The notes under the pieces were generated by a model. It saw only the letters and a list, made by a program, of their open reading frames with translations, did no database searches and had not been told where the DNA came from. A stretch of DNA of 64,000 nt. Source: Williamsia muralis NBRC 105860. Its GTDB lineage: Bacteria; Actinomycetota; Actinomycetes; Mycobacteriales; Mycobacteriaceae. Positions 1-26,052 of the stretch are shown here, in pieces (position 1 is the stretch's first letter; each line of letters begins with the position of its first letter). The DNA is taken from positions 248,001 through 312,000 of the forward strand of contig NZ_BDAP01000004.1 of the NCBI RefSeq assembly GCF_001598915.1, given 5' to 3'. Both the position numbers and the translations under genes were made by a program.

Positions 1-24215
<24,215 letters not shown>

Positions 24216-24650
24216 AGTTTGCCGCTCCAATCTCGAACGCTTGCTCGCCTCGGCCTCAGTGACGATGAATACTTCTATCTGCGAATGTAATGGCGGTGTC
24301 TTCGTTGTTCACATTCAACCCGCAAGTGGTCGTTTAGACAGTAACCAAGCAGGCGAGTCGCAGATATCTGCCACTCGAATGGCATGCCTTTCTGTGACCT
24401 ATCGACCAGATTGTCATAGCCGTTACACCGTCGCTTCAGCGGCCCGGATCAGCTCGACATCGCGGTTCTGGCGAGTCCATCGGGCGTCTCCGGCAGCGCA
24501 GTCAAGTATAGACCAGGCCTTGCGCACCATCGCTGACGTTCGATCGGTGGCTGTCACCAGGACCGACGAGTCCGGCCCCCTCGTACGCGGTGTGCGTGCG
24601 AGGGGGCCGGTGTCGAATATCTGGGGGCCGCTGGGGCCGGTGGTGGTGAA
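24216..24650 (-). other. 435-bp leader region of the NRPS gene
   Basis: No gene is supported here. Visibly less GC-rich than its neighbours. It holds the strong hairpin at 24572-24610 and about 355 bp of probable promoter or leader before the NRPS start. TTGACT followed by AT-richer segments on the minus strand around 24500 is a weak promoter candidate only. A 35-codon minus-strand frame beginning MPFEWQ lies inside, but nothing supports it as a leader peptide. Confidence 0.6.
24572..24610. terminator. Strong hairpin between small gene and NRPS
   Basis: CCGGCCCCCTCG and CGAGGGGGCCGG form a perfect 12-bp stem. The stem continues inward through CGTACGC / GCGTGCG with one mismatch to a tiny loop. 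It lies about 40 nt past the stop of the 24651-25100 gene, as a terminator would, and its symmetry allows action on either strand. No long T-run follows. It implies that the NRPS is transcribed separately or by controlled read-through. Confidence 0.65.
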
Positions 24651-25100
24651 CTACCCGCCTGCGAGCCTGCTGGCGATCACACGGAGGTCGATCTCACTCG
24701 TTCGCCCGGCGGTGACACGCTGCTGGGGCGGTGCCGTCGCGGTGTGCAGCTCGTCGAAGTCGCCGCGGATCTGAGCAAGTGCATCGTCGACGATCGCAGC
24801 GACAACCGAGCCGTCGGTTTCTGCACCGAGAGCCGGGATGCCCGCGAAGATGGCGGCAACGACAGCGGATCGGTCGTCCATGTACTGGTTCCGGGTCACC
24901 GGCATCATCAGATTGATCGCACCGGTGAGGTCGCGGTACGTCAGCGCACGCGATCTGTACCGGACGACCACCCGGTCAGGGGTCACTCGAGTGATCTCGC
25001 CCACCGCGGCAGGCAGGTCCACCCTCTGAGATGAAGGCGCCATAGCCCGCTGTTGCGGCCGAATCGTTGAAATAGCCATCTGCTCACCAACCCTGTGCAT
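24651..25100 (-). CDS. Small stand-alone A-domain-like protein (149 aa), NRPS-linked
   Basis: Not a family I can name. The central part follows the motif order of the two extra units inside the NRPS: a VTPDRVVVRYRSR strand, LTYRDL, then DDRSAVVAAIFAGIPAL and SVVAAIVDDALAQI. The last 40 residues (TAPPQQRV to the C-terminus) look like linker. No signal peptide, membrane helix or catalytic motif is seen. ATG at 25100 has GAGGG 9 nt upstream; ATG at 25079 is an alternative. The gene is co-directional with mbtH and the NRPS and is followed by a strong hairpin. It may act in trans on the synthetase; this is inference from sequence resemblance and position. Confidence 0.7.
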   Translation of the reverse strand: MHRVGEQMAISTIRPQQRAMAPSSQRVDLPAAVGEITRVTPDRVVVRYRSRALTYRDLTGAINLMMPVTRNQYMDDRSAVVAAIFAGIPALGAETDGSVVAAIVDDALAQIRGDFDELHTATAPPQQRVTAGRTSEIDLRVIASRLAGG

Positions 25101-25362
25101 CTGCCTCGACCCTCAATGGGTCGGCGTAGCTAATATTCACAGTACCCGGGCAGTAAGGGAAGGGAAGTATTCCAGCTGTTACAAGATCCGGGTGTGATCT
25201 ACGACACACCTGGAGCGTACGGCCTCTGACCTGGGCAGATGGGCGCGCAGCACGCATCGAAAATGAAACATTCGATGCGAATTCGTGTCATTGTCACCGC
25301 GTGTTTCGGACAGACACCATGACCTTTACGGTGTTGTGGCCCGCAGGCCCGCGGTCGCGCAG

Positions 25363-25584
25363 CTACTGCTGAGAATCGGCTTCCATGGCCTCGATCAGGC
25401 TCTTCGGGCGCAGGTCGGTCCAGTGCTCGTTCACGTAGTCGAGGCACTCGGCGCGCGATGCCTCACCGAAGACCTTGTTCCAGCCGGCCGGGATGTCGGC
25501 GAATGTCGGCCACAGCGAATGCTGGTTCTCGTCGTTGACCAGCACAAAGAATCGGCCGTCTTCGTCGTCGAATGGATTGCTCAT
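25363..25584 (-). CDS. mbtH: MbtH-like NRPS accessory protein
   Basis: A 73-residue protein with the full MbtH signature: [16 protein letters not shown], then the conserved tryptophan motif [13 protein letters not shown], then [17 protein letters not shown]. Family members bind NRPS adenylation domains and are often needed for their solubility or activity. AGGAGAAGGG precedes the ATG at 25584. It sits between two genes for A-like proteins and upstream of the NRPS on the same strand, so its natural partner is almost certainly the synthetase at 1-24215. Confidence 0.97.
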
Positions 25585-25692
25585 GAGCGGACCCTTCTCC
25601 TGTTTCGGTTACGCGTGCACCACGGTCGACACACACCACCGCCGGCGGCCCGTACCCCGCATCGGGTGCACAGACTGCCGGCGGACAGCAGA

Positions 25693-26052
25693 TCAGACCA
25701 GTTCGGCTTCCGCGAGAACCATCATTGCCTGTATGCGTATCCCGGCAAGCGTATCGGCGAGGCCGCGCGGGCCCGACACCGCCAGCCCGGGCACGGAAGT
25801 CATGAGCGCGACGGTGAGGGCGGAATCATCCACCGCGTCGCTCGCCATCGCGATTGCGGCACCCTGTGCCCGTCCCTTGAGTTCGCCGAAATTCACCGCG
25901 TAACCCTGACCCACCACTGCCGGCCGATCACGGCCGATATCAGCAGCAGCCATCACGAGCTGCGTGAGTGTGCGATCCTCTCGGTTACGAGAGCCGCGTG
26001 CGTCGGATCGGGCCGACGACCCCTTGCCATAGCGGCGGAGCTGCAGTACCAC
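25693..26052 (-). CDS. Small stand-alone A-domain-like protein (119 aa), NRPS-linked
   Basis: Unnamed family, with the same motif order as the NRPS-internal units: LTQLVMAAADIGRDRPAVV, NFGELKGRAQ, then DSALTVALMTSVPGL and RGLADTLAGI. The resemblance to the module 5 unit (VTVALSTLLPGLL, GFAEQFAGM) is easy to see. I chose GTG at 26050-26052 because AGGGAGGG ends 4 nt upstream; an ATG at 26118 gives a 22-residue extension that looks non-coding. The N-terminus is basic. It lies about 110 nt upstream of mbtH on the same strand and diverges from the ABC exporter. Confidence 0.65.
   Translation of the reverse strand: MVLQLRRYGKGSSARSDARGSRNREDRTLTQLVMAAADIGRDRPAVVGQGYAVNFGELKGRAQGAAIAMASDAVDDSALTVALMTSVPGLAVSGPRGLADTLAGIRIQAMMVLAEAELV

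Follow-up and report, generated by a model that had tools for sequence, protein, structure and literature searches.

The window analysed here, a 64,000-nucleotide stretch of a genome of the Williamsia group, carries a giant NRPS gene on its minus strand (positions 3..24230), which reads leftward from 24230 as an open frame of 11,316 aa, 8,076 aa of which lie inside the window, and runs past it to G000:C4:238358 (in the handles used below, g stands for a genus, G for a genome and L for a locus, with G000 being the window genome and G000:C4 the window contig). Ahead of the start of this gene and on the same strand are three small genes, namely dnN (the downstream free-standing unit), mbtH (25363..25584; Pfam PF03621, E = 4.5e-30) and upN (the upstream free-standing unit), with mbtH placed between the other two, as an earlier note on this DNA had proposed. 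The size of 119 aa given there for the product of upN (25693..26052) also stands, the best start being GTG 26052, which is preceded by GAGAGGGAGGG. The 149 aa given for dnN, corresponding to a start at 25100, are to be shortened, because the extra N-terminal residues of this reading lack conservation; the preferred start is the conserved ATG 25079, which yields a protein of 142 aa (24651..25079). The start context GGGAGGGCGTTGTG is common to the six closest loci. Beyond upN, the opposite strand encodes an ABC-transporter ATPase, two ABC-2 membrane proteins, two WS/DGAT-type acyltransferases and a glycosyltransferase. At its other end the giant NRPS terminates in a C/E-like domain (G000:C4 about 238,358-241,000). 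A motif scan of this end revealed no thioesterase motif, and hence release or hand-over may occur in trans. Within the NRPS, the C-A intervals of modules 5 and 3 respectively contain the internal units U5 (7908..8189, minus strand; G000:C4:255908-256189) and U3 (14754..15038, minus strand; G000:C4:262754-263038), which match the unit profile A7 with E-values of 1.9e-29 (U5 being itself a row of this profile) and 5.2e-31.

The best BLASTP matches of both free proteins in the 8,076-aa window part of the NRPS are these internal units rather than complete A domains, with upN aligning to residues 5344-5432 (U5; 33.9 bits, 2e-5) and dnN to residues 3084-3196 (U3; 33.1 bits, 4e-5). None of 300 shuffles of either protein reaches the real scores, the margin for dnN being small (best shuffle 31.6 bits versus 33.1). 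Profile-profile comparisons were carried out between nine groups of units, comprising upN, dnN, the third free copy described below, U3, U5, and two kinds of C- and N-terminal units. Every one of the 36 pairs aligns, with E-values of 3.7e-5 to 1.6e-22 and probabilities of 71-99.5, and the homology among these groups mostly reaches beyond the A-like part. The weakest pair is that of the g9 C-terminal units with dnN (E = 3.7e-5), and the alignment of the N-terminal units outside g9 with dnN spans only 42 columns; the C- and N-terminal units outside g9 are close relatives (E = 7.9e-21). The shuffles, taken together with the 36 profile pairs, indicate that the matches of upN and dnN to the internal units are not due to chance. 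The shared family membership claimed in the earlier note is thus upheld, and the contrary outcome, in which no profile would link the free proteins to the internal units, was not realised. A direct pairwise comparison of upN with dnN yields no match (E = 0.53), their link being visible by profiles only (E = 8.6e-7 and 1e-7). As the dnN rows, along with the N-terminal unit of L136, were left out of profile A7, the placement of dnN in the family rests on its BLASTP match to U3 and on the profile comparisons. In a tree of the units, flagged for its few columns and long branches, upN lies beside the C-terminal units of g9 and g12 with moderate support (90/80), and the third free copy groups with dnN (100/100). 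Across five giant NRPSs, the spacing from the C motif to A3 is 583-622 residues in modules 3 and 5 versus 465-502 in the other C-A modules, with spacings above 950 residues set aside as due to E domains or chance motifs.

The unit is about 85 residues long and comprises the first ~60-70 positions of an A domain followed by helices unmatched by A domains. In a comparison of profile A7 (32 rows, without dnN) with solved A domains, unit positions ~5-73 are matched by the beginning of A domains (E = 3e-16 for LgrA, in two stretches, and 3e-9 for FscH); among the 60 matches listed the alignments stop at position 73 of 100, and none covers the last ~27 positions. The upN and dnN profiles likewise align with the A-domain starts of their own NRPS, over 46 and 42 columns. 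Given that the A-domain matches end at about position 73 while the family runs on to 100, the unit unites an A-domain start with a distinct helical part, and on the same ground an interpretation as plain A-domain fragments was ruled out. Neither upN nor dnN belongs to any Pfam or NCBIfam family above cut-off. A Pfam scan of 32 members at E <= 0.01 recovered AMP-binding in eight (best 8.2e-6), PAS_8 in one and nothing else; the first member scores 18.9 bits against AMP-binding, for which the cut-off is 29.9, and by our arithmetic the best member would reach ~25 bits on that scale. Being ~85 aa in length, ending before the A3 loop and lacking a Pfam match at the gathering score, the units do not qualify as A domains, and since they end before the A-domain core motifs they should not be able to adenylate.

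The AlphaFold2 model of upN (44 rows; mean pLDDT 85.7, core 94-97) confidently predicts helices and a hairpin followed by three helices, and the same order of elements is seen for U3 in a separate 1,046-residue model of module 3 (pLDDT about 65-86). In the latter the C domain and U3 are modelled, and the A domain is mostly at pLDDT <50, which makes the model uninformative on the packing of U3. Foldseek searches with the upN fold recovered no PDB match with E <= 0.001, the best rows being A domains, and the best Z obtained with VIA is 5.5. A histone fold was considered and not adopted, as the histone-fold dimers attain a VIA Z of at most 4.1 and A domains rank above them. Neither free protein matches Pfam MbtH at E <= 10 (mbtH itself, 4.5e-30), and they are accordingly not counted among the MbtH-like proteins. 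NRPS-borne units are acidic on average and the free upN and dnN near neutral, with no complementary pattern being apparent in this comparison, for which the sequence windows include linkers.

The earlier note had suggested completion, stabilisation or gating of particular A domains as the role of upN and dnN; in the form weighed here, MbtH may take part and the two proteins would imitate or replace the N-terminal piece of an A domain. The homology of the unit to the A-domain N-terminus and the location of the internal units directly ahead of A domains agree with this proposal. However, the A domains that follow internal units retain their own N-terminal part, such that a unit is succeeded by a complete A-domain start.

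A scan of named genomes with dnN recovered 16 loci, namely 14 from Williamsia, one from Jongsikchunia and one from a genome titled Kitasatospora that is probably misnamed. In this last locus (L097, NZ_JNYV01000004.1, titled Kitasatospora arboriphila NRRL B-24581), dnN is 99% identical to the window dnN, as in Williamsia muralis. The order upN-mbtH-dnN, with mbtH recognized by motif, is kept in 15 of the 16 loci; in Jongsikchunia no mbtH motif was found between upN and dnN. The Williamsia faeni locus (L110, genome G004) keeps the order, followed by an NRPS ORF of 2,905 aa that ends in a degenerate-looking A-domain start. In nine species pairs for each gene, pN/pS ranges over 0.13-0.66 for upN, 0.12-0.57 for dnN and 0.14-0.86 for U3, and is below 1 in 27 of 27 comparisons, which points to purifying selection, with synonymous sites being close to saturation in several pairs.

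On the whole, free copies of the unit occur in three contexts, namely around mbtH, behind an NRPS gene, and ahead of a carboxylesterase gene. In the window genome a third free copy (G000:C4:233056-233340) is located outside the window, ~5 kb beyond the end of the NRPS, and has counterparts in seven of the eight other g1 genomes. Adjacent ORFs in this region (L076:5031-6290, minus strand; G000:C4 about 233,030-234,290) read by eye as glycosyltransferases. In four g9 loci, relatives of the third copy lie 0.36-0.49 kb behind an NRPS ORF, and in a fifth the distance is 1.6 kb (five loci from four genomes, one copy being partial). Profile A8, which represents this third type, has matches at E <= 1e-9 in 42 of 251 genomes of the bacterial family, as short ORFs in g1, g9, g12, g16 and g18, together with five NRPS-borne rows, which are the sole kind in g13 and g15. 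In g27, all three listed free copies (L233:6307-6744, L234:6634-7110 and L235:6262-6615) are directly ahead of, and on the same strand as, a carboxylesterase gene (Pfam COesterase), away from the split NRPS pair; this esterase is possibly a trans-acting release or tailoring enzyme. The idea of a family with in-cis and in-trans members around mbtH is borne out, and the family can now be related to A-domain starts, with no description of it having been found; for free copies, the surroundings of mbtH are one of three contexts. For the proposed completion of A domains, the placement around mbtH in 15/16 loci is a favourable sign, although several free copies lie away from mbtH as far as these regions were read.

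The units could also be functionless relics of A-domain recombination or of a failed gene fission, and as partial A-domain starts at C-A linkers they do sit where recombination could plausibly occur. This is countered by purifying selection on upN and dnN, by the conservation of a second half without an A-domain counterpart, and by the presence of the unit in many genera and the retention of paired ends (see below for both), and we regard this explanation as highly improbable.

In relatives, one NRPS subunit has a unit at its C-terminal end, following a C domain, and the next subunit has one at its N-terminal end, ahead of the A domain. In each of 13 loci selected solely because they had a C-terminal unit, the next ORF opens with a unit and an A domain, and in five further systems from other genera both ends are present in 5/5. 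The family thus shows the placement typical of docking domains, with one partner subunit carrying a unit at its C-terminal and the other at its N-terminal end; upN and dnN themselves are not at subunit ends. In 41 further genomes, hand-picked rather than random across 17 genera and contributing no rows to profile A7, this profile has matches at E <= 3e-14 in 36 genomes and 13 genera, by which a peculiarity of Williamsia alone was ruled out. The 95 rows comprise 83 full-length matches and 12 A-domain-like partials ending at position 68-75, which were set aside. The full-length matches include 24 close pairs (326-1,114 bp), spread over 22 genomes, with the members of a pair being in different reading frames in every case; the 35 unpaired ones comprise 18 separate units inside fused NRPSs of ~11,300 aa, five short free ORFs and 12 that are other or unlinked. 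There are ten such fused NRPSs, eight of them with two separate units and two with one listed unit, and in none are the units in tandem. In an order-wide search of 249 genomes, the listed matches that fall outside this bacterial family stop at position 78 or earlier and resemble ordinary A domains. The genomes of g6, g13 and g23 with fused NRPSs yielded no short free ORF at A7 E 3e-14 or A8 E 1e-9, a weak absence in that the former threshold also misses the dnN copy of G131, which is present in other searches. These genomes suggest that internal units may not need a free copy, and the notion of free copies as obligate partners of internal units is weakened by them.

These systems also bear on the completion of A domains, since the C-terminal unit is carried by a subunit ending in a C domain, with no A domain directly after it in cis. 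Given that the unit covers only ~60-70 A-domain positions before continuing into unrelated helices, and that it occurs at the facing ends of split subunits, this part of the earlier note is not supported, and completion, stabilisation or gating of A domains appears unlikely to be the role of upN and dnN.

For the A domains that follow N-terminal units, the closest match was sought among all nine A domains that the window NRPS contains. Outside g9 and g12, the best bit-score match is A5, the A domain that follows U5, in 23 of 23 genomes (two comparison sets of 5 and 19 sharing one genome, with two pairs, that of G131 and the second of G069, left out). The lead of A5 is at least 35 bits in 22 of these, the exception being L226, in which it is narrow at 18 bits and the identity to A1 is higher (48 vs 46%). 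In the seven genomes of g9 and g12 the best match is the A domain A7 at 36-44%, with no clear counterpart. Seven internal units in fused NRPSs precede an A3-like domain; contrary cases are the U3 of G025, which precedes an A domain closest to A5 and not A3, and one internal unit of G131, which precedes a domain only 39% like A5. The A5 match at the split sites implies that one and the same junction exists closed, with one unit, and open, with two, and both forms are present in g6 and in g23. In two genomes the apparent partner subunits are not adjacent. In G170, contig C1 carries the subunit ending in a unit (a 6,283-aa frame) and contig C10 the one starting with a unit (a 7,968-aa frame), the latter among neighbours read by eye as housekeeping genes and with an A5-like A domain (64-67%). 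In G035 the two subunits are ~10.5 kb apart with other genes between them, and the A domain after the N-terminal unit is again A5-like (62%). From their units and the A5 match, the separated subunits of G170 and G035 would appear to be partners. Directly after the C-terminal unit of G170 (G170:C1 about 442,100-444,900; L238) there is an A-domain ORF that lacks a unit, behind which is an mbtH-like gene as read by eye.

The occurrence of the unit at two facing ends of split subunits points to an association of polypeptides. The paired placement, the presence of one unit in the fused and two in the split form, and the unlinked apparent partners, taken together, suggest a docking role as the best reading for the unit family, to which we would assign a probability of roughly three in four on the basis of these sequence comparisons. 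Under this reading, many genera of this bacterial family have two matching units where subunits meet within one module, with one chain ending in C-unit and the next beginning with unit-A, and in other genera the boundary is closed to a single polypeptide with one unit in the C-A linker. Mutual association of the units is the likely mechanism, by which a C domain on one chain would be tied to the A domain of the following chain in the manner of docking domains. The proteins upN and dnN are probably free members of such a docking-type family, in which units would pair C with A across chains and free copies would act in trans on NRPS-borne units. That the free proteins join the same interactions as the NRPS-borne units has perhaps a slightly better than even chance, and they would then most likely associate in trans with U3 and U5 as adaptors or caps. 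Counting against this reading are the A-domain ORF without a unit that follows the C-terminal unit of G170, the A domain after the N-terminal units of g9 and g12, which has no clear counterpart in the window NRPS, the fused-NRPS genomes in which no short free ORF was detected, the moderate support and long branches in the placement of upN beside the g9 C-terminal units, and the Foldseek search without a PDB match at E <= 0.001.

In an alternative scenario, the units self-associate and oligomerise the fused NRPSs by pairing U3 with U5 or one chain with another, and the free copies limit or tune this association. That several genera keep units in their fused NRPSs where no free copy was detected, and that the C- and N-terminal units outside g9 are closely related, could be accommodated in this way. 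The histone-fold dimers among the Foldseek and VIA rows point in the same direction, but these matches are weak and may reflect a common helical arrangement, and we consider such oligomerisation quite unlikely. Returning to the docking role, a more far-reaching version can be put forward tentatively, as somewhat less probable than its negation: the units would represent a new class of assembly-line docking unit, derived from part of an A domain, that joins C and A across polypeptides, and the free adaptors would plug into the lone units of giant NRPSs, recruiting or ordering partners, for example an esterase acting in trans or A domains loaded with MbtH.

The unit family appears to be undescribed. 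In the portions of open-licence full text covered, dealing with A domains described as truncated, partial or inactive, with docking between C and A, with split modules and with the NRPSs of Rhodococcus, Nocardia, Gordonia and Williamsia, no report of the unit was found. The term "truncated adenylation domain" has reportedly been used in one published study.

Compared with the ANL superfamily (PF00501), the unit resembles the N-terminal piece of an A domain over positions ~5-73, and differs from A domains in ending before the core and in having its last ~27 positions to itself. Like MbtH-like proteins, upN and dnN are small and encoded beside an NRPS, where they flank mbtH; unlike them, neither matches Pfam MbtH, and the weak structural matches of upN are led by A domains. 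Like NRPS docking domains, the units occur as matching partners on the ends at which two assembly-line subunits that must work in order face each other. The parts consulted of a 2021 review of docking domains describe COM at E/C, PAX at PCP/C (with C, PCP, ACP and oxidoreductase as further predicted neighbours) and beta-hairpin classes at PCP/C or PCP/Cy, and name no NRPS class at C/A (PMC9113145). As far as these junction descriptions go, the present units are set apart from all three by their position at C/A inside a module, their larger size (~85 aa), their relationship to A domains, and the existence of internal and free forms, the free-standing copies being what would be an unusual addition to docking systems. 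A parallel in position is provided by the synthetic zippers of type S NRPSs, which have been used to join an NRPS split in the C-A linker, although, in the parts of these studies consulted, they are designed coiled coils whereas the units are natural (PMC8362031, PMC10443035). In the sections consulted of the latter study, the C-A split of XtpS, the zipper position with the largest loss of yield before linker optimisation, gave ~30% of the wild-type yield, and added linkers restored it close to wild type (PMC10443035). A natural C/A docking pair, if confirmed, would show how an NRPS can be divided within a module and still keep its C-A contact, and the same junction is available for direct tests in fused, split and unlinked form.
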